Virus record (IMG/VR): IMGVR_UViG_3300021960_000438 | Coordinates: 1-26,441 of that record | Strand: one strand, 5' to 3' | DNA length: 26,441 nt | Source of the DNA: a virus | In this document: positions 4,780 to 14,709 of the stretch, piece after piece | How the letters are laid out: each line of letters begins with the position of its first letter | Position numbering within the stretch: the stretch's first letter is position 1 | The notes under the pieces: generated by a model | Database searches by the model: none | Seen by the model: only the letters and a program-made list of their open reading frames with translations | What the model was told of the DNA's origin: nothing | Position numbers and translations under genes: made by a program

Positions 4780-6651
4780 ATGACAGTATCAAGCACAACA
4801 GTAAAAAATTCGTATTCGGGTAATGACAGTACAACTGAATTTGCCTACACATTTAAAATATTTGCAGACACAGATTTACAAGTAATTATCAGATCCTCTA
4901 CAGGAACTGAAACAACCAAAACTCTAACCACGCACTATACAGTATCTGGTGCTGGAGATGCGTCAGGTGGTAATGTTACATTTACATCTGGGAATACTCC
5001 TGCAACTGGTGAAACAGTTGTTATTAGAAGAGGTGTTCCGCAAACTCAAGCGATAGATTATATCGCTAATGATCCATTCCCTGCGGAATCTCACGAAGAG
5101 GGTTTGGATCGTGCAACTATGACTATTCAACAGATGCAAGAGGAACTAGACAGATCATTTAAAGTATCTGCAACCAACTCAATTACAACACCAGAATTTA
5201 CAGATGATGCAACAAGTAGAGCATCTAAAGCATTAGGCTTTGACAGTACAGGAAATGTATTAACAACAGTTGCAGACTTTCTACCGGCAGGTGGAGATAG
5301 TGCAATGTTTCAATATTCAACAACAACTGCAGATGCAGATCCCGGAGCAGGAAAATTTAGATTAAACCACGCAACAATATCTAGTGCAACTGAAATGTAC
5401 ATAGATGATTTAGAATACAATGGTACAGATGTAGCAGCATGGGTGCAAAGCTGGGATGATGTTTCTGGTAATGATACTAACAGAGGTAGAATAAGAATTT
5501 CAAAAGCAAACACATTAGATACTTGGATGGTATTTAAAGTTAGTGGTGCAATTACAGATGCTACTGGTTATTCTAAAATAACTTTAGTTTATATTGATAG
5601 TGCTGGTAGTTTTACTAATGATGATAAAGTATTTATTGCATTTACAGCTTCTGGTGAAGATGGTGCAATACCCGGATATTTATACAATTTTGATACAGGA
5701 ACGTCTGATACAGACCCCGGTGCTGGAGAGATAGCATTTAATAATGGTACATACGCATCTGCTACAGTAATATTTATAGATGATGCTGATCAAAATGGAG
5801 TAACTGTATCTACAGATATTTTAACTTGGGATGATTCAACATCTACTATTAGAGGTAACTTAATGATCTACGACATTAACGATAGATCAACTTATGCAAG
5901 ATTCAATATAACTGGTGCTTCTACAGATGCTTCTGGTTATGTAAAATTAGCAGTTACTCATGTAGCAAGTAACAACACATTTAGTGCTGCTGACGAACTT
6001 TCAGTACATTTTTCAAGGTCTGGTAATAAAGGCGACACAGGTTCAACAGGGTCTACAGGATCAACTGGTTCTACAGGTGCTACTGGAGCTGCGGGAACTA
6101 ACTCACAACTTGCAATGACTTGGAGTTCATCAACTTCTGATGCTGATCCGGGTGCAGGTAAAATAGCTTTTAACAATGGTACACTATCAAGTGTTTCAAT
6201 TTTATATGTAGATGACGCAGATGATGCTAGTGCAGATATTACTTCCTATGTTCAATCTTGGGATGATGTAACAAACACTACTGCTAGAGGTATTGTAACT
6301 GTAACTAAAGAAGGTACACCATCTACTTATGCTTTATTCAAAGTATCTGGTGCTGTTACAGACGCATCTGGATATACAAAAGTTCCAGTAACTCACGTAG
6401 TATCAAGTGGTACATTTTCTAATACAGATGGTGTTGGGGTACACTTTAGTTATTCTGGAGCAGATGGTTCAGATGGAGAGATGACTAGCTTTACATTAGC
6501 TGGTACAAGTGGCTCTAGTCAAACAATAACAAATGGTAACACAGTAACAATAGCAGCAGGAGCTGGGATTACGACTACTGGTGGTGCAACAGATACAGTA
6601 ACGATAGCTGTAACTGATGATCCAACAGCACTTGCAATCGCACTCGGCTAG
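4780..6651 (+). CDS. Tail fibre with T7-type N-terminus, three tandem domains and a collagen-like insert
   Basis: A 623-residue fibre. Residues 1 to ~140 fit the T7 gp17 N-terminal tail-attachment domain: an opening SGNDSTTEFAYTFKI-like strand pattern, IRRGVPQTQ, then ESHEEGLDRATMTIQQMQEEL. There follow three copies of a ~100-residue beta-rich domain, each opening at a DPGAG motif (D187, D312, D456) and containing an SWDD or TWDD turn and a TDASGY-type turn. Each ends in F..SG followed by a G-x-y stretch. After copy 2 this stretch has expanded to about seven GST/GAT triplets (residues ~418-439). The tail end (AGTSGSSQTITNGNTVTI) is typical of short fibre tips. It should trimerise and bridge tail to receptor or to the smaller fibre proteins downstream. 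The C-terminus is short, so separate tip proteins are plausible. Confidence 0.85.
   Translation: MTVSSTTVKNSYSGNDSTTEFAYTFKIFADTDLQVIIRSSTGTETTKTLTTHYTVSGAGDASGGNVTFTSGNTPATGETVVIRRGVPQTQAIDYIANDPFPAESHEEGLDRATMTIQQMQEELDRSFKVSATNSITTPEFTDDATSRASKALGFDSTGNVLTTVADFLPAGGDSAMFQYSTTTADADPGAGKFRLNHATISSATEMYIDDLEYNGTDVAAWVQSWDDVSGNDTNRGRIRISKANTLDTWMVFKVSGAITDATGYSKITLVYIDSAGSFTNDDKVFIAFTASGEDGAIPGYLYNFDTGTSDTDPGAGEIAFNNGTYASATVIFIDDADQNGVTVSTDILTWDDSTSTIRGNLMIYDINDRSTYARFNITGASTDASGYVKLAVTHVASNNTFSAADELSVHFSRSGNKGDTGSTGSTGSTGSTGATGAAGTNSQLAMTWSSSTSDADPGAGKIAFNNGTLSSVSILYVDDADDASADITSYVQSWDDVTNTTARGIVTVTKEGTPSTYALFKVSGAVTDASGYTKVPVTHVVSSGTFSNTDGVGVHFSYSGADGSDGEMTSFTLAGTSGSSQTITNGNTVTIAAGAGITTTGGATDTVTIAVTDDPTALAIALG
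6031..6096 (+). repeat. Collagen-like G-x-y codon repeat inside the tail fibre
   Basis: Twenty-two codons read G-D-T followed by repeated G-S-T, G-A-T and G-A-A triplets. The DNA alternates synonymous codons (tcaaca/tctaca), so it is not a perfect nucleotide repeat, but 9-base units such as ggttctaca recur. It sits between the second and third tandem fibre domains. Such linkers are common in phage fibres and can form triple helices; their length can change by recombination or slippage. Confidence 0.85.
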
Positions 6652-6678: not shown

Positions 6679-7044
6679 ATGGCAAATACTTTCAAGGCAA
6701 TCAACTTCGCAGCAGAACCAGCTTCGGCAGGTACACCTTATGTTATGTATACAGCAGCAGGGAGTACAACTACTGTAGTTCTTGGCTTGATACTTGCTAA
6801 CATACATACAACTGCAATTACAGCAGAAGTAGAATTAGTTTCTACAACATCAAATAGAGGTGGTGCTAACAATGTAGCAAATGGTACATCAATGTTAGTT
6901 AAAGATGTAAGCATCCCTAGTGGATCTTCACTTGAGATTTTATCTGGCTCTAAAGTTATTTTAGAAACTGGAGACAAAATACAAATTGATTGTTCTGTAG
7001 CTGATAAAATTTCTGGTACACTATCAGTAATGGAAATTACATAG
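6679..7044 (+). CDS. Small beta-rich virion protein, unknown
   Basis: A 121-residue protein starting after two purine-rich ribosome-binding stretches (aggag twice between 6659 and 6672). The composition is Thr/Ser/Ala/Val-rich with few charges, starting MANTFKAINF and alternating in a way that suggests beta strands. Segments such as LEILSGSKVILETGDKI look like a jelly-roll or beta-sandwich decoration or fibre-associated protein. It lies between the main fibre and the paralogous tip-protein array, so I infer a tail or virion surface role. I do not recognise a named family. Confidence 0.6.
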   Translation: MANTFKAINFAAEPASAGTPYVMYTAAGSTTTVVLGLILANIHTTAITAEVELVSTTSNRGGANNVANGTSMLVKDVSIPSGSSLEILSGSKVILETGDKIQIDCSVADKISGTLSVMEIT

Positions 7045-7053
7045 GAGTTTTAA

Positions 7054-7737
7054 TTGAGTTATATTGGACAAAAACCAGCAGACAAAGCACTTGTTGCAAG
7101 TGATCTTGATCCAGCAGTTATTACTGGTCAAACAGCTTTAGCAGTAGCTCCAGCTGATACAGATGAATTTTTAATTAGTGATGCTGGTGTTTTAAAAAGA
7201 TTAGATGCTAGTTTAATTGGTGGTGGTGCTCATACTTTAATTAGTACAACAACTGTAGATAATGATGCAACAGCTGCAATTACTGGAATGGATAGTACAT
7301 ATTCAAGATATTTAGTTACTGTTAATAATTTAGTATCAGCAACTGATGGTGTAAGTGTTTATATGCAAGTAATAATTGGGGGTTCTGTACAAACTGGTAC
7401 TAATCATGCTTATGGTAATAATACTAGAAATTCTGGTGCTGGTGCAGCTGGAAATGAAAGTTCTGGTGCTAATGCTTTTAAAATTTCTAAATCCGACATA
7501 GGTAATGCTACTGGAGAAAATTTTAGTGGAGAAATAATAGTATATAATCCATCTGAAACAGCATTATTTAAAAATATTAGCTGGAAATCAGTATATACTG
7601 TAAATGATGGCACACTTGATTCAAATGTTGGTGGTGGTTTTTGGAAAAGTGGTCAAGCAGCAATAACTGGAGTTTCTATAAAAATGGCTAGTGGAAATAT
7701 TACTTCAGCTGTCATCAAACTTTATGGAATAACATAG
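7054..7737 (+). CDS. Fibre/receptor-binding-type protein, paralogue 1 (TTG start)
   Basis: A 227-residue protein whose best start is TTG at 7054, because taggag lies 6-11 bases upstream and the product begins (M)SYIGQKPAD, matching the AYIGREP opening of the gene at 7952. The N-terminal ~55 residues look like a docking segment ending in a Gly-rich linker (LIGGGAH). The rest is one member of the domain shared by five proteins here: TLISTTTV, a DSTYSRY turn, a central SGEIIVYNPS strand and a final SAVIKLYGI. The domain is probably a surface-exposed beta sandwich. An adhesin or tip role is inferred from neighbours and from the known abundance of LYGI-ending proteins near phage fibres. The small protein at 7747 follows directly. 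Confidence 0.65.
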   Translation: MSYIGQKPADKALVASDLDPAVITGQTALAVAPADTDEFLISDAGVLKRLDASLIGGGAHTLISTTTVDNDATAAITGMDSTYSRYLVTVNNLVSATDGVSVYMQVIIGGSVQTGTNHAYGNNTRNSGAGAAGNESSGANAFKISKSDIGNATGENFSGEIIVYNPSETALFKNISWKSVYTVNDGTLDSNVGGGFWKSGQAAITGVSIKMASGNITSAVIKLYGIT

Positions 7738-7746
7738 GATAAAAAT

Positions 7747-7950
7747 ATGCCAAGATATAATAATATAAATGGAACAAGAGTACAATTCACAGCAGCAGAA
7801 GAAACTGCAAGAGATAATGAAGAAGCACAATTTGCTATTGAAAAACAAGCAGAGATAGATGCGGCAACAACAAAAGCTAATAACAAAACATCAGCACAAA
7901 ACAAATTAAAAGCATTAGGTTTAACTGATGCTGAAATAGAGGCATTATAA
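7747..7950 (+). CDS. Small tail-fibre chaperone-like protein A
   Basis: A 67-residue, mostly helical acidic protein. It opens MPRYNNINGTRVQFTAAEE and then has a charged helix and a KALGLTDAEIEAL end. It is clearly related to the 70-residue protein at 11123, which opens MARHHNINGNIVPFTAEEE and ends LGLTVDEVKDAF. Both follow fibre-type genes, as tail-fibre assembly chaperones often do. The function is inferred from position and from the T-x-E-E helical pattern seen in short tail assembly proteins; it could instead be a structural trimming or linker protein. Confidence 0.6.
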   Translation: MPRYNNINGTRVQFTAAEETARDNEEAQFAIEKQAEIDAATTKANNKTSAQNKLKALGLTDAEIEAL

Positions 7951-7951
7951 T

Positions 7952-8923
7952 ATGGCATATATAGGTAGAGAACCAACAGTCGGAAACTTTCAAGTTTGTG
8001 ATGCTATATCAGTAGTCAATGGTCAAGCTGCATACACTATGCAAGTATCATCTGTTAATGTATCTCCAGAAACTGCTAACCACATGCTAGTATCTTTAAA
8101 TGGTGTACTACAAGCACCAACAAGTTCTTATACTGTATCTGGTTCAACAATTACTTTTGCATCAAACCTAGTTACTGGTGATGTTATAAACTTTATTCAT
8201 ATACTAGGATCAGTTTTAGATTTAGGTGTACCAAGTGATCGTACAGTTTCATTAGCAAAATTAGCTTCTGGTACAGATGGAAATATTATTAGTTATGATA
8301 CATCTGGAAATCCTGTAGCTGTTGCTACTGGTAGTTCTGGACAAGTTTTAACAAGTGCTGGTGCAGGAGCAGTTCCTACTTTTGCAGACTTACCTGCTGG
8401 TGGTCTTTATACTAAAACAGCAACAGCAAGTTTAACTTCTGCTGCTTCATCAATTACTTTGCAAAATGCTTTTAATAGTACATACACAAATTATATGATT
8501 ACTATAGAATCTCTTATATTTGCTGCTGCTAGTACAAATCTGCATTTTATACCTATTGATAGTAGTGGTAATGCCACATCAGTTCACAAATACGCAGCCG
8601 AAGGTTATTATGCTAATGGAGCACAATCTTGGAGAACTAACTCTGCTCATGCTTATGCAAATATTTCTAATGATGTTTCTAGTGGAACTTCACAAAATTG
8701 TAATGGTACTATTCACATATTTAGTCCTATGGACACAACTGCTGGTATTACAAGTTATAATTGGTTTTTAAAATCATCAAAAGCCTATGAAGAAGCTGGT
8801 ATAGTTTATGGTGCTGGAGTTTCATCTGCTGGTGTAGCTTACACAGGATTTAAACTTCAAATGTCTGCAAACAATATAACAAGTTGCAAAATAGCTTGTT
8901 ATGGAATTACAAACCCATCATAG
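7952..8923 (+). CDS. Fibre/receptor-binding-type protein, paralogue 2
   Basis: A 323-residue protein, the longest of the five paralogues. Residues 1 to ~95 form an added N-terminal domain: AYIGREPTVGNFQ, then LVSLNGVLQAPTSSYTVSG and DVINFIHILGS. I have seen this pattern in marine phage fibre proteins, where it is probably a virion-attachment module. A linker with DGNIISYDTSGNPVAV follows. The C-terminal ~165 residues are the shared tip domain (STYTNYMI, NGTIHIFSP, SCKIACYGI). It begins one base after the stop of the chaperone-like gene. A lone Cys pair near the C-terminus differs from its relatives. The short plus-strand frame at 8520 is a shadow. Confidence 0.7.
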   Translation: MAYIGREPTVGNFQVCDAISVVNGQAAYTMQVSSVNVSPETANHMLVSLNGVLQAPTSSYTVSGSTITFASNLVTGDVINFIHILGSVLDLGVPSDRTVSLAKLASGTDGNIISYDTSGNPVAVATGSSGQVLTSAGAGAVPTFADLPAGGLYTKTATASLTSAASSITLQNAFNSTYTNYMITIESLIFAAASTNLHFIPIDSSGNATSVHKYAAEGYYANGAQSWRTNSAHAYANISNDVSSGTSQNCNGTIHIFSPMDTTAGITSYNWFLKSSKAYEEAGIVYGAGVSSAGVAYTGFKLQMSANNITSCKIACYGITNPS

Positions 8924-8931
8924 GAAATAAT

Positions 8932-9240
8932 ATGACAAAAAAATTAATATATAATGCTTTAACAAACAGTTCTGAATTAGTTGATCTAACATCATCTGAA
9001 CAAACTGCTCATGATAATGCAATAACCGCACATGATAATAATGCACCAACAAGAGCTTTAGATAGATTAAGAGAAAAAAGAAATCAACTTCTTGTTGAAA
9101 CAGATTGGATGGCTAACTCTGATGTAACTATGAGTGATGAATGGAAAACTTATAGAACTCAATTAAGAGATTTGCCATCAGGATTAGATACAGTAGAAAA
9201 AGTAAACGCAAAAGAGTTTCCAACAAAACCATTGGAGTAA
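8932..9240 (+). CDS. Phage tail-fibre assembly chaperone-like protein (Phage_tail_APC type)
   Basis: A 102-residue protein; ATG at 8932 with agga upstream is preferred to an upstream TTG that would overlap the previous gene. The C-terminal half has the hallmark R..R..LL.ETDW, then SDVTMSDEWKTYRTQLRDLP. This is the conserved core of the phage tail assembly chaperone family typically encoded next to receptor-binding fibres. The N-terminal half (LTSSEQTAHDNAITAHDN) has the helical pattern seen in the two shorter chaperone-like proteins at 7747 and 11123. It probably helps fold or load the preceding fibre protein. The family call rests on the motif. Confidence 0.75.
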   Translation: MTKKLIYNALTNSSELVDLTSSEQTAHDNAITAHDNNAPTRALDRLREKRNQLLVETDWMANSDVTMSDEWKTYRTQLRDLPSGLDTVEKVNAKEFPTKPLE

Positions 9241-9243
9241 GAC

Positions 9244-9846
9244 ATGGCTCTTAACTTCGCAAATAATAATTCATTATCAGCAATCACAACTCAACCAAGT
9301 GGTTTAAGTGGTGGAGCATTAAACCTTATCTCTACACAAACTGCATCAAGCTCATCTACAATATCTTTTACATCTGGGATAGATTCTACTTATGATTCTT
9401 ATGTATTTAAGTTTTATGATATTCACCCAGCAACTGATAATACAGAATTTCAATTTCAAGGTTCTACAAATACTGGCAGTTCTTATGGTGTAACTATAAC
9501 ATCAACTTTTTTTAGAGCATATCATGCAGAAGATAATAGTGGTGCAGCATTAGAATATCAAACAGGAAAAGATTTAGCACAATCAACATCTTTTCAAACT
9601 TTAGCAGAATATGGAAACGACAACGATCAAAGTACAAGTGGAGAACTTTGGCTTTTTGGATTGTCATCAACTACATACGTCAAACATTTTATGTCAAATT
9701 TTAATTTTGTTAATGGTTCAAATTATTCAATGAATACTTATTGTGCTGGGTATTTTAATACAACATCAGCTATTGATGCAATTCAGTTTAAAACTAATTC
9801 TGGAAATACTGATTCTGGAAAAATTAAACTCTATGGAGTTTCATAA
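9244..9846 (+). CDS. Fibre/receptor-binding-type protein, paralogue 3
   Basis: A 200-residue protein starting MALNFANNNSLSA. The N-terminal ~30 residues are shared with the next two genes (NNNSLSA/NNNSISA) and may be the docking tag. The remainder is the common tip domain: NLISTQTASSSSTISF, DSTYDSYVF, a central SGELWLFGLSSTTYVKHFMS, a GYFNTTSAIDAIQF segment and the last strand SGKIKLYGVS. Compared with paralogues 1 and 2 it lacks a long attachment region. The stop is immediately followed by the ATG of the next paralogue, suggesting coordinated synthesis and possibly a mixed complex. Confidence 0.65.
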   Translation: MALNFANNNSLSAITTQPSGLSGGALNLISTQTASSSSTISFTSGIDSTYDSYVFKFYDIHPATDNTEFQFQGSTNTGSSYGVTITSTFFRAYHAEDNSGAALEYQTGKDLAQSTSFQTLAEYGNDNDQSTSGELWLFGLSSTTYVKHFMSNFNFVNGSNYSMNTYCAGYFNTTSAIDAIQFKTNSGNTDSGKIKLYGVS

Positions 9847-10473
9847 ATGGCATTAGTTAAATACAACAACAATAGCATAAGTGCTGTAACCTCTGCTGCT
9901 TCAATACCAAGTGGAGCTATGACACTTATTAAAACTGTAACAGCAAGTAATGCTTCTAATATTACTTTTATTCATGGAACTTCAGATGTTGTATTTGATA
10001 GTACATATCCAATTTATGTTATAAAATTAATTAATTGCAAACCAGCAAGTGGTGCAAATTTAAAATGGAATACAACAACAGATGGATCAAATTTTAATGT
10101 TGTTGTTACTAACACAACTTTTGTTGCAGAACATTCTGAAGATGACAGTTCGGTTGCAAGATTAACTTATTCAGCAGGTTATCATGATGCACAAGCTGCT
10201 GATCCTTATTTAGCCATTATTAATAAAGGTGGCTATGATACTGGAGCAGATGCTTCTGGAAGTGGAGAAATAAAAATATTTTCTCCAAGCTCAACTACAT
10301 TTGTTAAACATTATATGTCAAGAATAAATGGTATGAGTGAATATCCAGGAAGTTCAGATTGTTACACAGCAGGATATTTTAATACTACTTCTGCTTTAAC
10401 AGGATTTAGAATAGAAGCTCTTGCACAAAATATTACTGGAACAGTAAAACTCTATGGAATTAAGGATAGCTAA
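9847..10473 (+). CDS. Fibre/receptor-binding-type protein, paralogue 4
   Basis: A 208-residue protein directly abutting paralogue 3. It shares the short N-terminal tag (MALVKYNNNSISAVTSA), the TLIKTVTASNASNITF opening, DSTYPIYV, SGEIKIFSPSSTTFVKHYMS, AGYFNTTSALTGF and a final GTVKLYGI. The middle, between about residues 70 and 130, is the part that differs most from its neighbours, as expected of loops facing a receptor. The start is fixed by the zero-base spacing. Its stop overlaps the next start as TAATG. The function is inferred from family resemblance inside this window only. Confidence 0.65.
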   Translation: MALVKYNNNSISAVTSAASIPSGAMTLIKTVTASNASNITFIHGTSDVVFDSTYPIYVIKLINCKPASGANLKWNTTTDGSNFNVVVTNTTFVAEHSEDDSSVARLTYSAGYHDAQAADPYLAIINKGGYDTGADASGSGEIKIFSPSSTTFVKHYMSRINGMSEYPGSSDCYTAGYFNTTSALTGFRIEALAQNITGTVKLYGIKDS

Positions 10474-11096
10474 TGAGTATTGTTAAATTAAATAATCAAG
10501 GTGTAAAGAACGCAACTGCTTTTGGTAGCATTAGTTCTTTAGGTAGCATGACGTTTATTAAAAAGCTAACAGCTAGTGCTTCTGCTACTTTATCTTTTGT
10601 TGATGGTACAGATGGTGTGGTGCTAGATGATACTTATAAGGAATATGTATTTACTTTTAATAATATTCATAGTTCATCAGAAAATTCATTCCAAGTAAAT
10701 TTTAGAGATGGTGGTTCAGCTTATGATGCTGTTAAAACATCTGCTGGTTATAGAGCATATCATTTTGAATCAGATAGTGGTTCTGGATTAGGATATGAGG
10801 CTGCTTTAGATTTAGCACAATCAACAGCTTTTCAAGGTGTAGGTCAACCTCAATCTTCTGCAGATAATGATAGTAGTGGTTCTGGTTTTTTACATTTATT
10901 TAACCCATCATCAACTGTTTTCGTAAAGCATTATATATCTCATTATGTTCATCATTATACTAATGCAGCACCTGGAGAAATAGACAATTATATGGCAGGA
11001 TATTGTAATACAACAACAGCTATTGATGGAGTGCAATTTAAGTTTGATTCTGGCAACATAGATGCTGGAGATATTTGCCTTTATGGTATTGCATAA
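10473..11096 (+). CDS. Fibre/receptor-binding-type protein, paralogue 5
   Basis: A 207-residue last member of the row. It opens MSIVKLNNQGVKNAT, then MTFIKKLTASASATLSF, DDTYKEYVFTF, a central SGFLHLFNPSSTVFVKHYIS, GYCNTTTAIDGVQF and the closing GDICLYGIA. Its middle region (RAYHFESDSGSGLGYEAALDLAQSTAFQ) is closer to paralogue 3 (RAYHAEDNSGAALEYQTGK, DLAQSTSFQ) than to paralogue 4. This suggests either that 3 and 5 are the more recent duplicates or that segments were exchanged. A small chaperone-like gene follows after a 26-base gap with its own ribosome-binding site. Confidence 0.65.
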   Translation: MSIVKLNNQGVKNATAFGSISSLGSMTFIKKLTASASATLSFVDGTDGVVLDDTYKEYVFTFNNIHSSSENSFQVNFRDGGSAYDAVKTSAGYRAYHFESDSGSGLGYEAALDLAQSTAFQGVGQPQSSADNDSSGSGFLHLFNPSSTVFVKHYISHYVHHYTNAAPGEIDNYMAGYCNTTTAIDGVQFKFDSGNIDAGDICLYGIA

Positions 11097-11122: not shown

Positions 11123-11335
11123 ATGGCAAGACATCACAATATAAATGGGAACATAGTTCCTTTTACAGCAGAAGAAGAAGCAGCTAGAGATGCTGAAGAA
11201 GCACAAGCTGTAATAGACGCACAAACTGCAAAAGATGCAGAGGATGCCAAGAAAGCTAGAATATCGTCTGCTAAAACTAAACTACAAAATCTAGGTCTAA
11301 CAGTAGATGAAGTGAAAGACGCATTTAACATCTAG
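11123..11335 (+). CDS. Small tail-fibre chaperone-like protein B
   Basis: A 70-residue paralogue of the protein at 7747: MARHHNINGNIVPFTAEEE, an Ala/Asp/Glu-rich helix and an NLGLTVDEVKDAF end. An aaaggagt site lies about 11 bases upstream. It closes the fibre array, just as its relative closes the first fibre gene. The helix has many A-x-x-A positions, so a coiled coil is likely. A role as fibre assembly partner is inferred from repeated adjacency. An antisense reading frame over almost its whole length reflects the biased codons and was ignored. Confidence 0.6.
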   Translation: MARHHNINGNIVPFTAEEEAARDAEEAQAVIDAQTAKDAEDAKKARISSAKTKLQNLGLTVDEVKDAFNI

Positions 11336-11337
11336 TA

Positions 11338-11550
11338 ATGAAGTTTGTGCTGATGTTGTCTATATGTTCATTTGCTGTAGGAGAATGTAAAGACCCAGTA
11401 AAATATCAAGAAACTTTTGACACTTGGAAAGATTGTGCGATAGTAGCTTTAGATACAAGTATAAAATATTTAGAAGCTATAGATGATGACACAGTAAATC
11501 AATTTCAATTATCAACTCAATACAGTTGTAAATTAGAAGATACAATTTAA
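11338..11550 (+). CDS. Small exported protein with signal-like N-terminus
   Basis: A 70-residue protein. The N-terminus MKFVLMLSICSFAVGEC is a short hydrophobic segment like a signal peptide or single membrane anchor, followed by a mature part with two further Cys (TWKDC and QYSC) that could form a disulfide. A lipobox is not convincing. It starts three bases after the stop of the preceding gene and its stop overlaps the next start. Position at the head of the lysis/small-gene block suggests an envelope-directed role, but I recognise no named family. Confidence 0.5.
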   Translation: MKFVLMLSICSFAVGECKDPVKYQETFDTWKDCAIVALDTSIKYLEAIDDDTVNQFQLSTQYSCKLEDTI

Positions 11551-11744
11551 TGCCTAAAAATATTGCACTTCAAAAAATAGAATCACACGAAAAACTTTGT
11601 CGTATCATGCAAAAGCAAACTCATCAAAAAATTAACAACATAGAATCAGAAATTAAAGATATAAAGAAACACTTATACTATGCTATGTCAGCTCTTATAG
11701 GTGGGATGTTTACAATTATAGTTATATTATTTCAAAAACTTTAA
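11550..11744 (+). CDS. Holin-like / XhlA-like membrane protein
   Basis: A 64-residue protein with a charged, coiled-coil-prone N-terminal two thirds (QTHQKINNIESEIKDIKKH) and one C-terminal membrane helix (ALIGGMFTIIVILFQKL). This is the layout of XhlA/haemolysin-type phage proteins that cooperate with holins, and of some T7-like class II lysis proteins. It overlaps the preceding gene by TAATG. No other motif is visible. The lysis role is inferred from topology and from the further membrane proteins downstream. Confidence 0.5.
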   Translation: MPKNIALQKIESHEKLCRIMQKQTHQKINNIESEIKDIKKHLYYAMSALIGGMFTIIVILFQKL

Positions 11745-11757
11745 CTTTAAGGTCTTT

Positions 11758-12060
11758 ATGGCTAGAAGAAAGAAAGCAATTACTGGTCTATTAAGCGAAA
11801 TGAAAGCACAGATTGAACTAGCAAAAGACCCAAATATCCTTGTATTTACACCACTTGGAGGTCTTGGTCCTGTGGATATTGTTACTTTAAATATGTCTAC
11901 AGGTGAGTATACTGGTTATGATGTTAAATCAAAAAATTATAGAAAAACAGACTATACAGCCAAAGATGGCTATAGAAGAAAAAGAATTGGCTCACTAATA
12001 TTAAGAGGAAGAACCAAAGAACAAATCAAACTAAAGGTAAAAATAATATATGCAAAGTGA
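11758..12060 (+). CDS. Possible PD-(D/E)XK nuclease
   Basis: A 100-residue basic protein. Residues 33-58 read LGGLGPVDIVTLN, then TGEYTGYDVKSKN, giving G-x-x-D40, a strand, then D55-x-K57 on a second strand. This spacing matches the catalytic core of small PD-(D/E)XK nucleases such as resolvase-like enzymes, with Arg/Lys-rich flanks for DNA contact. If real, it could cut branched or host DNA late in infection. The protein is short and the resemblance is by eye. The position among lysis genes is unusual for a nuclease, although T7-like phages do carry small endonucleases. Its end overlaps the next gene by 11 bases. Confidence 0.4.
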   Translation: MARRKKAITGLLSEMKAQIELAKDPNILVFTPLGGLGPVDIVTLNMSTGEYTGYDVKSKNYRKTDYTAKDGYRRKRIGSLILRGRTKEQIKLKVKIIYAK

Positions 12061-12256
12061 TAATTCTTTAGACATTATTAATGAGTATAAAGATCAAGTT
12101 AGAATATTAAAAGGTCAGATAGCAGAGCTTGAAGATGCAGGTAAATCTAAAGATGCAGCTAACAAAAGATGTTTGCAAAAACTAGAATTTTGCACTAAAG
12201 ATTTAGATGATGCTTTATCTAAAATTAAAAAGTTAGAAGAAGAAACTAAAGATTAA
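12050..12256 (+). CDS. Small coiled-coil protein
   Basis: A 68-residue, strongly charged, helical protein (EYKDQVRILKGQIAELEDAG, later DALSKIKKLEEE) with heptad-like spacing and two Cys (RCLQKLEFC). It has no signal peptide and no membrane segment, so it is not by itself a spanin. It starts inside the end of the possible nuclease gene and is followed one base later by the two-helix holin-like gene. I infer a partner role in lysis or assembly; no family recognised. Confidence 0.5.
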   Translation: MQSDNSLDIINEYKDQVRILKGQIAELEDAGKSKDAANKRCLQKLEFCTKDLDDALSKIKKLEEETKD

Positions 12257-12257
12257 T

Positions 12258-12629
12258 ATGCTGCCATATAATTTATTATTTAAAATAGGGTCTAAAGCTG
12301 TAGGAAGTTTTATGACTAAACGAGCAGAGAAAAGTGAACGTAAGCATCAAATAGCTTTACAAGAAATGCAAACTGGTAACGAAAGAGCTAAAAGAAATGG
12401 CTCACTAATTTTAGATTTAGTATTGGGTGCATTTATATTAGCACCACTTGGCATACTAGCTTATGCTACATTCTATGGTGATATGACTATGTTAAAAAAA
12501 GTAGAGTTTTACTTTGAACAACTAAAAAACATTCCAGAAGTATATTTATATTTAATTTTTATAGTAGTTGGTGGTAACTATGGAATATCTGTTACTAATT
12601 TATTGAGTAATAAAAAGTTTAAAAAATGA
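12258..12629 (+). CDS. Holin-like membrane protein (GTA_holin_3TM-like)
   Basis: A 123-residue protein with a charged, amphipathic N-terminal half (MTKRAEKSERKHQIALQEMQ), then two clear membrane helices at about 49-72 (LDLVLGAFILAPLGILAYA) and 95-116 (LYLIFIVVGGNYGISVTNLL), and a Lys-rich tail. The amphipathic leader followed by an APLG-containing helix and a GG-YG helix resembles the GTA/3TM holin group found in alphaproteobacterial phages and gene transfer agents. It would permit endolysin access to the wall. No soluble endolysin is recognisable next to it. Confidence 0.55.
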   Translation: MLPYNLLFKIGSKAVGSFMTKRAEKSERKHQIALQEMQTGNERAKRNGSLILDLVLGAFILAPLGILAYATFYGDMTMLKKVEFYFEQLKNIPEVYLYLIFIVVGGNYGISVTNLLSNKKFKK

Positions 12630-12838
12630 CAATATCTGCTTTTGATCCTAGTCTATTAAGTAACTATGACCAACCTAAATACCTTTTACATTTTCAATGG
12701 AAAAATTCTGACACTAAAATTTACAGATATGCTTTAGTAGAAGAGATAGATATAACTAAAATAGACCACAGATTAAAATTAAAACAAGATGAAGTAGGAT
12801 TAAGCCAACAAGAAATATGGGAGAAAAAATATAAATGA
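12626..12838 (+). CDS. Conserved-looking small soluble protein, unknown
   Basis: A 70-residue protein that overlaps the holin-like gene by four bases (ATGA). It opens MTISAFDPSLLSNYDQP and contains an aromatic stretch YLLHFQWKNSDTKIYRYALV, with a charged helical C-terminus ending in EIWEKKYK. No motif recognised. Translational coupling on both sides is the main support for expression. Confidence 0.45.
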   Translation: MTISAFDPSLLSNYDQPKYLLHFQWKNSDTKIYRYALVEEIDITKIDHRLKLKQDEVGLSQQEIWEKKYK

Positions 12839-12981
12839 AGAATATATCTACATCATACTCACAGCAATATAATAAGAAAGTAAGTTTATTATCTCAACAA
12901 ACAGGAAAAAATGGCAAGAGTAAAGTTCAACATAGCAGATCAACCTCACGTAAGAATACCAAAAAAAACAAGTATAGGTAG
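12835..12981 (+). CDS. Micro-gene: basic 48-residue protein
   Basis: ATG at 12835 overlaps the stop of the previous gene (ATGA). The product, MKNISTSYSQQYNKK... to KNTKKNKYR, is very basic and Ser/Gln-rich. Its last 71 bases overlap, in another frame, the better supported gene that starts at 12911. Coupled start is the only support; it may be a short leader whose translation delivers ribosomes to 12911. Confidence 0.3.
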   Translation: MKNISTSYSQQYNKKVSLLSQQTGKNGKSKVQHSRSTSRKNTKKNKYR

Positions 12982-13060
12982 ACGACCCAAACTATCTTCT
13001 ATGAATAAGCATAAGAAGAGACAAAAAGGTAAATCAAAAAATCGTGGACAGGGTAGATAA
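12911..13060 (+). CDS. Micro-gene: basic 49-residue conserved marine-phage protein
   Basis: The frame opens MARVKFNIADQPHVRIPKK and contains TSIGRRPKLSSMNKHKKR, ending KNRGQGR. An agga site lies 6-9 bases upstream. The IPKKTSIGR...MNK.K.R...RGQGR pattern is one I remember from tiny proteins of pelagiphage-type genomes, so I consider it real although it is too short for most gene finders. Extremely basic, so probably binds nucleic acid or a phosphate-rich partner. Function unknown. Confidence 0.55.
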   Translation: MARVKFNIADQPHVRIPKKTSIGRRPKLSSMNKHKKRQKGKSKNRGQGR

Positions 13061-13093
13061 TATCTTATATTAGAACATTCATAGGAGATAAAT

Positions 13094-13195
13094 ATGATTG
13101 ATGAAATTAGAGACATGATCAAACATTATATGGAAGATCATAAAAAAGCAGTTATCGTTGTTGGTGTGCTATTAGTTATAGCTCTAATAATATAA
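13094..13195 (+). CDS. Micro-gene: 33-residue single-pass membrane peptide
   Basis: Strong taggaga site at 13083-13088, then MIDEIRDMIKHYMEDHKK followed by a continuous hydrophobic helix AVIVVGVLLVIALII to the stop. An amphipathic cytoplasmic segment plus one membrane helix fits a class III or pinholin-like peptide or a lysis regulator. No family named. Confidence 0.5.
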   Translation: MIDEIRDMIKHYMEDHKKAVIVVGVLLVIALII

Positions 13196-13215
13196 TTATT
13201 GATAAGGAATAACCT

Positions 13216-13305
13216 ATGGAGATAGAGAGGATGAACTATTATTTTACAGGTGTTCTTATAATAATGATGACTTTGTTGGCTCTCTGTGGAGGTCCAGCAA
13301 CATGA
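13216..13305 (+). CDS. Micro-gene: 29-residue hydrophobic peptide
   Basis: aagga precedes the ATG. The product MEIERMNYYFTGVLIIMMTL continues LALCGGPAT, one membrane helix with a Cys near its end that might be lipidated (LALC resembles a lipobox). Its stop overlaps the next ATG (ATGA at 13302-13305). The LALC plus short tail raises the possibility of a tiny outer-membrane spanin-like lipoprotein, but 29 residues would be very short. Confidence 0.45.
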   Translation: MEIERMNYYFTGVLIIMMTLLALCGGPAT

Positions 13306-13415
13306 TTGATAAATTTTTATATTCTTTTTTTGGAAAACTAGATAATTTAATTGGATTAGTAGACAAGTTATTTGCACCACGTTGCAAATGTAAGAAGAAG
13401 AAGAAAAATGCCTAG
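13302..13415 (+). CDS. Micro-gene: 37-residue protein with Cys/Lys-rich tail
   Basis: Starts within the stop of the previous micro-gene. MIDKFLYSFFGKLDNLIGLV then DKLFAPRCKCKKKKKNA: an amphipathic aromatic helix followed by a C-x-C and a Lys run. I recall similar tiny proteins in marine podoviruses. It overlaps the next start by eight bases. A membrane-surface or RNA-binding role would fit the composition, but is a guess. Confidence 0.5.
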   Translation: MIDKFLYSFFGKLDNLIGLVDKLFAPRCKCKKKKKNA

Positions 13416-13530
13416 ACCTGTACGTAAATGGATAGTAAGATTAAGAATGTGGTATGCTGATATAAGAGGTCATCATGGTAAGAGATGGAATTATGAATCT
13501 TCAGATCACTACATGAAAGGAAAAAAATGA
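13408..13530 (+). CDS. Micro-gene: 40-residue basic/aromatic protein
   Basis: ATG lies inside the end of the previous gene. MPRPVRKWIVRLRMWYADIR then GHHGKRWNYESSDHYMKGKK. It is rich in Arg, Trp, His and Tyr, with an amphipathic first helix. Its stop overlaps the next ATG (ATGA at 13527-13530). No known family. Tight coupling on both sides argues that it is translated. Confidence 0.5.
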   Translation: MPRPVRKWIVRLRMWYADIRGHHGKRWNYESSDHYMKGKK

Positions 13531-13892
13531 AAGTATCAGATAAAACATCAGTAAGTATGCCAATCAAAAACATGATTGGTATAGTTATTGCTGTTGCTAT
13601 GGGTGTGTTTGCTTACACAGAAGTTACTGCTAGACTTACATCCCTTGAGACATCAAGAGAATTATTCCAAGCTGATTTACTTAAAAAATCTGAACAACTT
13701 CCAACAGACCAAGAACAATATATGTTGATAGAAGATTTATATAAAACAACAGAAAAATTAGAATTAACTCAAGAACAAAACATGACGAATAAAGTTAATA
13801 TACAATTTTTAAGAGATCAATTAGATAAAGCGTTAGCTGATGTTGAACATTTAAAAGATAAGGTAAGACAAAATGGAAATGGTACACACTAA
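13527..13892 (+). CDS. Membrane-anchored coiled-coil protein
   Basis: A 121-residue protein: a short polar start (MKVSDKTSVSMPIKN), one membrane helix (MIGIVIAVAMGVFAYTEV), then a long charged helix with repeated heptads (TSLETSRELFQADLLKKSEQ through DKALADVEHLKDKV). An N-terminal anchor plus a periplasm-length coiled coil is the layout of inner-membrane spanins, and proteins opening with this SDKTSVSMP segment are frequent in marine phages. No outer-membrane spanin partner is certain. The spanin-like role is inferred from topology and neighbourhood. Confidence 0.55.
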   Translation: MKVSDKTSVSMPIKNMIGIVIAVAMGVFAYTEVTARLTSLETSRELFQADLLKKSEQLPTDQEQYMLIEDLYKTTEKLELTQEQNMTNKVNIQFLRDQLDKALADVEHLKDKVRQNGNGTH

Positions 13893-14104
13893 TGATTGAA
13901 TCTGTTGTAGCTCTTTGTATGTTTATAGCAGGAGAATTAACTGAACACAGAATACAACCAGCAATGTCAGATTGTTTAAAAGGCAAACGTGTTGCTGAAC
14001 GTGGAGCAAATGATAATATAGAATATAAATGTGGTAAAGTAGAAGCAGAAATAGAAGAAAATATTGATGGCAGTAAAGCTATTAAAAAAATAATAAAAGA
14101 ATAA
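13892..14104 (+). CDS. Small Cys-containing exported/secreted-type protein, unknown
   Basis: A 70-residue protein overlapping the previous stop (TAATG). MIESVVALCMFIAGELTEHR opens with a short hydrophobic stretch, followed by two further Cys (MSDCLKGKR, EYKCGKVEAE) that could pair. The layout SCLxxKRxAER...YxCxK with an acidic helix afterwards is one I have met in pelagiphage-like genomes. It resembles the protein at 11338 in size and Cys pattern. Possibly a periplasmic lysis partner; not assigned. Confidence 0.5.
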   Translation: MIESVVALCMFIAGELTEHRIQPAMSDCLKGKRVAERGANDNIEYKCGKVEAEIEENIDGSKAIKKIIKE

Positions 14105-14106
14105 TT

Positions 14107-14391
14107 ATGGCTATTAGAAAAACAACAAAAGGCAAAGACGCAAATTATAGACCTACAAAAAAAGGTGCTGGGATGACAGCTAAAGGTGTTGCAAGATATA
14201 GAAGAGCTAATCCCGGATCAAAATTAAAAACAGCAGTAACTGGTAAAGTTAAGCCGGGATCTAAAGCTGCTAAACGTAGAAAAAGTTATTGTGCAAGATC
14301 AGCTGGACAACTTAAAAGATCATCAGCTAAAACAAGAAACGATCCTAACTCAAGAATAAGACAAGCAAGACGTAGGTGGAAGTGCCGATAA
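14107..14391 (+). CDS. DUF6321-like basic conserved phage protein
   Basis: A 94-residue very basic protein. The central GAGMTAKGVARYRRANPGSK, then LKTAVTGKVKPGSKAAKRRKSYCARSAGQ, and the terminal DPNSRIRQARRRWKC are signature stretches of a family widespread in cyanophages and other marine phages (I know it as DUF6321). The function is unestablished. The charge and the AAKRRKS tracts suggest nucleic-acid binding, perhaps a virion-packaged or histone-like factor. Stop overlaps the following zinc-finger-like gene. Confidence 0.75.
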   Translation: MAIRKTTKGKDANYRPTKKGAGMTAKGVARYRRANPGSKLKTAVTGKVKPGSKAAKRRKSYCARSAGQLKRSSAKTRNDPNSRIRQARRRWKCR

Positions 14392-14591
14392 GAAAAACTT
14401 GGAAGAAACCAGAAAAGTCTTTTATGTGTGGGTACTGTGAAGAGTGTAATAAAGAATTAATTAGTGATGCTGGTGGCTGGATAGTCACAGCTAACAAACA
14501 ATATTTTTGCCATGATGGTAAAGATGGTAGTTGTTTTGACAACTATTGTGTGCTAAAATTAAAACAACAAAAGGAAAATAATTATGGCTAA
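14382..14591 (+). CDS. Small zinc-binding-type protein
   Basis: About 69 residues from a GTG at 14382; a GTG at 14376 and an ATG at 14424 are alternatives in the same frame. Cys pattern C-x2-C-x2-C (MCGYCEECNKEL), then a strand SDAGGWIV, then FCHDGKDGSCFDNYC. Two Cys/His knuckles about 35 residues apart suggest a treble-clef or LIM-like zinc module. The start overlaps the DUF6321-like gene and the end overlaps the next micro-gene by eight bases. A protein-protein or nucleic-acid adaptor role is likely but undefined. Confidence 0.55.
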   Translation: MPIRKTWKKPEKSFMCGYCEECNKELISDAGGWIVTANKQYFCHDGKDGSCFDNYCVLKLKQQKENNYG

Positions 14592-14709
14592 AAAAGGTTT
14601 GTACTATAATATAAACAAAAGAAAAAAAGCTGGTACTTCAAGAACAAAAAAGAAATCTACAATATCTGCAAAGGCTTATAAAAACATGAAGTCTGGATTT
14701 AAAAAATAG
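14584..14709 (+). CDS. Micro-gene: conserved basic phage protein (KKGLY family)
   Basis: 41 residues opening MAKKGLYYNINKRKKAGTS and ending SAKAYKNMKSGFKK. The MAKKGLY-N-I...(K/R)KKAG...A-K-A-(Y/F)K pattern matches a tiny basic protein found in many T7-like and marine phages, often beside DUF6321-like genes. Function unknown. It is the last plus-strand gene before the convergent minus operon and its end overlaps the DnaA-like gene by 11 bases. Confidence 0.65.
   Translation: MAKKGLYYNINKRKKAGTSRTKKKSTISAKAYKNMKSGFKK

Follow-up and report, generated by a model that had tools for sequence, protein, structure and literature searches.

Tailed-phage fibre tips are generally homotrimers, and a phage locus with several genes for one tip domain raises the question of whether their products serve separate fibres or combine on one. 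The window, by which we mean the whole stretch of DNA analysed, is a virus record of 26,441 bases from a relative of pelagiphage HTVC010P, and the host of its virus is ocean SAR11-type bacteria. A preliminary description of positions 7054-11096 had proposed a row of five paralogous fibre-tip proteins, forming a modular adhesin set that perhaps gives one virion several receptor specificities. We consider it likely that three of the five, the stand-alone proteins T1, T2, and T3, instead form a 1:1:1 heterotrimeric tail-fibre tip, encoded in trans and furnished with swappable receptor-binding cassettes.

From the tail fibre gene to approximately position 7227, the window and HTVC010P are 94% identical in DNA sequence, and a small gene at 6679-7044 shares 99% protein identity with its HTVC010P counterpart. 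Protein identity is 53% for F1 (over 117 matching residues at its start), 72% for F2 (over 149), 73% for T1, 54% for T2, and 61% for T3, and several matching genes located 3' of these are closer to HTVC010P again (91%, 76%, 80%, and 85%). Identity thus falls after approximately 7227 and recovers downstream, which marks the 7054-11096 region as the host-recognition island that varies in phages of this type. Metaviromic islands of this kind have been described in general terms for pelagiphages, and HTVC010P-like phages are known to carry hypervariable recognition genes with a conserved N-terminus and a variable C-terminus beside the tail fibre (PMC3909814).

Two gene models differ between the genomes. 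The main tail fibre (4780-6651) is a single ORF of 623 amino acids in the window; in HTVC010P, it is split into gp22 and gp23 by one extra base in a collagen-like repeat, which is either a sequencing error or a genuine frameshift. HTVC010P gp25, annotated from 11591, lacks the N-terminal half of the F1-like protein, and an F1-like frame with the full adaptor opens at a TTG at 11276 (L001:11276-11914). HTVC010P endolysin gp37 had no blastp match at 1e-5 among the ORFs of the window, as noted for 11500-14600.

The tip genes and their neighbours

The features of the locus are listed in Table 1. All five paralogues lie where they had been placed, and each matches the phrog_14820 profile: T1 (5e-84), T3 (9e-83), and T2 (4e-56) over the full length, F1 over residues 52-226 (1.6e-14), and F2 on its C-terminal part (1e-5), in addition to a match of F2 to the tail fibre protein phrog_18673 (9e-54). 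The row is interrupted, as S1 and the chaperone gene separate F1, F2, and T1, and S2 follows T3. Nor are the five equivalent. F1 and F2 are fibre proteins that join a long adaptor to a tip domain, that of F2 being a module that is common among marine phages (47 records), whereas T1-T3 carry only a tag of 26-27 residues at the N-terminus and form a unit of their own. The motifs by which the family had been recognised are broadly right but not literal: DSTY is NSTY in F2 and DDTY in T3, the SG of the central strand is NG in F2, and the terminal LYGI of F1, T2, and T3 is LYGV in T1 and CYGI in F2. The NNNSxSA tag is literal in T1 and T2, while T3 has NNQGVKNA.

Table 1. Features of the tip-gene locus, in positions of the window
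Feature	Position	Strand	Remarks
F1, side-fibre protein	7054..7737	+	TTG start; N-terminal adaptor (SYIGQKPADKALVASDLDP...) and tip domain in cis
S1, small protein	7747..7950	+	N-terminus common to PF16778-type fibre chaperones
F2, fibre protein	7952..8923	+	AYIGREP adaptor, residues 1-~108; tip domain in cis, 153-319
Tail fibre assembly chaperone, PF16778	8932..9240	+	Start uncertain; earlier in-frame TTG at 8884
T1, slot alpha	9244..9846	+	Tag 1-27, frame ~28-60, cassette ~64-185, C-end 187-200
T2, slot beta	9847..10473	+	Begins right after T1 stop; ends KLYGIKDS
Swapped segment of T2	9930..10461	+	~96% DNA identity to alpha-slot gene (type B, slot 1) of locus L144
T3, slot gamma	10473..11096	+	Start codon shares one base with T2 stop; ends DICLYGIA
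S2, small chaperone-like protein	11123..11335	+	Closes the trio unit

The assignment of the chaperone gene rests on a match to PF16778 (Phage_tail_APC; 9e-10, 38.7 bits), above the gathering cut-off of 26.6, and on a match to the tail fibre assembly family phrog_4912 (7e-17). S1 and S2 share the start MxRxxxINGxxVxFTAxEE with PF16778 chaperones and lack the chaperone end. The S1 version, MPRxxxINGxxVxFTAxEE, also begins 95-amino-acid chaperones located 3' of tip genes elsewhere, and S2 is 36% identical to HTVC010P gp33, which is annotated as tail fibre assembly. It is possible that S1 and S2 are cut-down, unit-specific chaperones.

AlphaFold2 predicted a 12-strand all-beta domain for T1 (pLDDT 91, pTM 0.83), the first 20 residues being of low confidence, and the C-terminal half of F2 was predicted with the same strand order and spacing. 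The predicted folds are thus alike rather than unrelated, and with the profile matches they put the paralogy first proposed well outside chance. Many BFVD entries are hit by both models, including proteins that bear the names tail fibre, lambda Stf side tail fibre, and collagen repeat. The tip domain has no sequence relative in the PDB, and galectin-8 was the only PDB fold match below 1e-3, with a TM-score of ~0.4-0.5; the predicted fold can be called lectin-like at most. C1q-like domains have been named for these recognition genes in a text from which the word "paralog" is absent (PMC3909814). For the tip domain, a C1q-like fold was rejected, as there was no Pfam C1q match, galectin-8 led the fold search, and no C1q entry occurred among the best 50 PDB fold matches.

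Copy number of the tip genes

The reading nearest to the earlier proposal is that T1, T2, and T3 form three separate homotrimeric fibres, which occupy distinct attachment sites and give a virion several receptor specificities. We regard this as unlikely, and copy number provides the first reason, since separate fibres would predict that loci with two tip genes are common. We searched 394 sequences, nearly all from viral contigs, with queries drawn from several slots and trio types, and such a search should have picked up two-gene loci. A run was defined as stand-alone tip genes with other genes or sufficient flanking DNA on both sides; adaptor proteins were left out of the count, as were two-gene runs, which were seen only where the end of a sequence cut or neared the run. 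Removal of runs that had an identical protein in common left 189 non-redundant bounded runs from marine viral contigs. Three genes were present in 172 of these and six, as two trios, in 15; one run held a trio and a single gene (L229) and one a single gene (L244), these two being the only odd runs that remained. No run of two or five genes occurred among the 189. The isolates HTVC010P, HTVC034P, and HTVC019P have three genes each. The comparison of copy number among related phages that had been suggested at the outset therefore yields a rule of three, with adjacent tip genes inherited together in threes or sixes in 187 of 189 runs.

Four types of trio can be told apart by their tags: A, which is NNNSxSA-like and includes the window, B, C, and D. 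The six-gene runs, among those listed, consist of a C trio and, after it, an A trio, and B trios stand apart, adjoining F2. Trios are present in HTVC010P-type phages, in HTVC019P (Autographiviridae), and in the siphophage-like contig L394, where upstream genes match the central tail fibre J and a distal tail protein; the trio thus moves between tail types. Genome contigs contributed two loci only, both of them D trios. One is L394 (L394:1-8021), in which siphophage tail genes accompany the trio and which is binned as Campylobacteraceae; this bin may include a stray phage contig.

The two odd runs speak for the feasibility of homotrimers. In L244 (748-1350), the single gene combines an A1-type tag with a slot-3-type end, and L229 (4442-5056) has a similar gene beside its trio. 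These fusion-like genes, with an alpha start and a gamma end, fit a deletion between genes 1 and 3 and are perhaps reverted homotrimers. A homotrimer must therefore also be possible for this domain, as is also indicated by its presence in cis on single fibre proteins.

Slot frames, cassettes, and residues 92 and 96

Whole-domain identity separates the slots only weakly (~54% vs 50%), and for this reason an analysis by column was carried out. Slot signal was found in the tag and in columns 63-100 and 228-242, with almost none in columns 104-165 and 186-226; that is, slot identity resides in the N-terminal tag, the first strands, and the last strand, and the central cassette of ~120 residues has almost none. 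Accordingly, the nearest neighbour from other phages lay in the same slot for 98% of tags, 94% of first strands, and 91% of C-ends, but the two parts of the cassette reached only 44% and 38% (chance, 33%). Slot models trained on type-A frames, with the tag excluded, assigned one alpha, one beta, and one gamma gene in 178/203 trios, whereas cassette-based models did so in only 72/203 (chance, 6/27). The frame models also recovered the gene order of other types, gamma-beta-alpha in 10/13 type C trios and beta-alpha-gamma in 8/11 type D trios. Across types, the domains group as alpha (A1, B1, C3, and D2), beta (A2, B2, C2, and D1), and gamma (A3, B3, C1, and D3). By their frames, then, the members of a trio are not interchangeable. 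Approximately 12% of trios violate the one-of-each pattern outside the tag, which we count against a heterotrimer.

The cassettes behave differently from the frames. Mantel tests on 146 A trios gave an r of 0.64-0.70 between the tags of different slots, which thus covary, but of only 0.01-0.05 between cassettes and 0.02-0.08 between a cassette and its own tag. A segment of T2 that is nearly identical to an alpha-slot gene in L144 is a direct case of a cassette crossing both slot and trio type, as the flanking tag and last codons of the two genes are unrelated. This transfer included the first strands too, leaving the tag and the C-end as the most strictly kept parts. The idea of a modular set is borne out in that adaptor, tag plus frame, and cassette are separable, the adhesin role itself being putative; among related phages, the variable segments carry little slot signal and are exchanged between slots and phages. 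Such free exchange would also suit a receptor-switching reservoir, in which a virion or lineage uses just one member, the remaining copies being kept as a store of cassettes for recombination. We consider this very improbable in view of the strict threes, the intactness of all three frames, the translational coupling, and the retention of slot frames across types.

The tags bear on separate homotrimers as well. On a scale of 100, tag similarity within a type is 43-53 for B, 39-48 for D, 17-30 for A, and 7-24 for C. The tags of B and of D trios are thus more alike than same-slot tags of different types, which reach only ~3-18, and this makes three different docking sites unlikely.

Contact between the proteins is suggested by their covariation, which was scanned over 181 x 181 column pairs and compared with the permutation maximum. 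The top alpha-beta pair was alpha92-beta96; the leading beta-gamma pairs were 92-236, 92-234, and 92-96, in that order. Nearly all pairs that exceeded the permutation maximum lie in the frame (6/6 and 35/36). The coupling has a direction: from position 92 in one slot to position 96 in the next, z was 19.8 (alpha-beta) and 20.8 (beta-gamma), compared with 6.2, 1.0, and 3.4 in reverse and 5-7 within chains. At alpha92-beta96, the residues are E-K in 120 trios, S-E in 33, S-K in 11, and E-E in one, a pairing that reads as compensation. No alpha-gamma pair covaried above the permutation null in the 181 x 181 scan; gamma92-alpha96 is E-K in 174/203 trios and, being nearly fixed, can hardly covary, so that invariance explains the absent signal without proving a contact. 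This directional pattern is the one expected of a closed alpha-beta-gamma ring in which a single contact is repeated. In the T1 model, the covarying positions map to strand 52-62 and to the last strand, 189-199.

Shared ancestry partly inflates this covariation. As a control, we compared 33 disjoint pairs of trios that have similar tags and differ in E or S at alpha92; beta96 had changed as expected in 23 pairs, was unchanged in 10, and was reversed in none. At alpha92-beta96, the later-found L394 has S-E, in keeping with the rule, and L395 has T-E. The window itself is one of the S-K exceptions (S52 in T1 and K60 in T2), which we also count against a heterotrimer.

A probable heterotrimeric tip and its relation to known fibres

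The surroundings of the trios suggest how such a tip would be made and carried. In A, B, and C trios, neighbouring genes mostly share 1 or 14 bases at their junctions, the T2/T3 type of junction being found in 105/122 type-A trios, and D trios are more loosely spaced; the overlaps suggest coupled translation in equal amounts. A chaperone-like gene comes next after the trio in 127/157 runs. All 13 C trios begin 5 nt after an F2 of 203-208 amino acids that ends in ...VDxTQGWLLKEK and lacks a tip domain, whereas the F2 proteins that accompany A trios are longer (median, ~298 residues), many of them having a tip in cis. In its C-terminal half, the short F2 matches the N-terminal region of long tail and tailspike proteins, and the D trios of L394 and L395 lie ~5 nt downstream of tipless shaft-like proteins. 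One shaft gene thus precedes three tip genes, rather than one as separate homotrimers would have it, and its product presumably forms a trimer. An adhesin heterotrimer placed off the tail fibre, for instance as a capsid or neck decoration, is scarcely to be expected, given the PF16778 chaperone genes within the module, its position soon after a T7-type tail fibre gene, and the tipless tail-fibre adaptors that precede C and D trios.

We therefore return to the heterotrimeric tip as the preferred reading. T1, T2, and T3, as the alpha, beta, and gamma subunits, would be made by coupled translation and would assemble 1:1:1 in a fixed cyclic order into one tip, which would cap a trimeric tail-fibre shaft from another gene. 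The short tags, matched within a trio, would dock the tip on the shaft, and the frame (the first strands, the 92-96 residue pair, and the last strand) would provide three different interfaces that set the order of neighbours. We infer that each subunit turns its central cassette towards the host and binds the receptor with it; recombination of cassettes between slots and phages within the conserved frame would then give three independently exchangeable binding surfaces per tip. Several specificities from independent fibres, as first envisaged, gain no support in the case of T1-T3, which behave as one unit in their runs of three or six and never two, their slot frames, their covarying tags, and their directional covariation. 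F1 and F2 may yet form separate fibres, as companions with the tip domain in cis and presumably as ordinary homotrimers. With less assurance, we lean towards a broader proposal, in which the alpha-beta-gamma tip in trans is obligate and a common pool of cassettes fits any slot, so that binding faces are combinatorial and some phages stack two to three trios with up to nine cassettes.

If the tip is indeed heterotrimeric, receptor recognition would lose its threefold symmetry, and a small genome could show three unlike binding faces at one site. Some of the most abundant ocean phages have hypervariable recognition islands, which such a tip would also help to account for. The slot frames and the 92-96 residue pair offer a direct rule for assembly tests and for reading host-recognition genes in metagenomes.

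In T4 gp37, T7 gp17, and lambda Stf-type fibres, a trimeric shaft ends in a C-terminal beta-rich tip, and several of these fibres need a chaperone. They are homotrimeric, and each has its tip in cis, whereas the tip proposed here would derive from three genes in trans. HTVC010P gp30-32, HTVC034P gp35-37, and HTVC019P gp45-47 are members of phrog_14820 and likewise form three-gene rows; they are annotated as hypothetical, and the rule of three and the slots are absent from the annotation and from the papers found. In the receptor-binding fibre of phage DEV, one monomer each of gp54 and gp55 sits on a homotrimeric gp56 stalk (PMC12892993). Different proteins thus meet at a stalk tip there too, but without a set of three paralogues that share one domain. 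The mainly open-access papers searched yielded no tailed phage with a three-paralogue tip, and priority is unproven.

The nearest precedent is Dishui Lake virophage 2 (DSLV2), in which three consecutive tail genes give a 1:1:1 heterotrimeric receptor-binding fibre, as supported by AF3, MD simulation, EM, and binding assays (PMC12724248). The likeness lies in the three consecutive genes, and for the trio the heterotrimer is deduced from sequence. Unlike the tailed phages that carry the trio, DSLV2 is a eukaryotic virophage, and the proteins of its tail are relatives of the T4 gp37 tip. What distinguishes the phage side is the existence of trio types with different tags, together with the exchange of cassettes.
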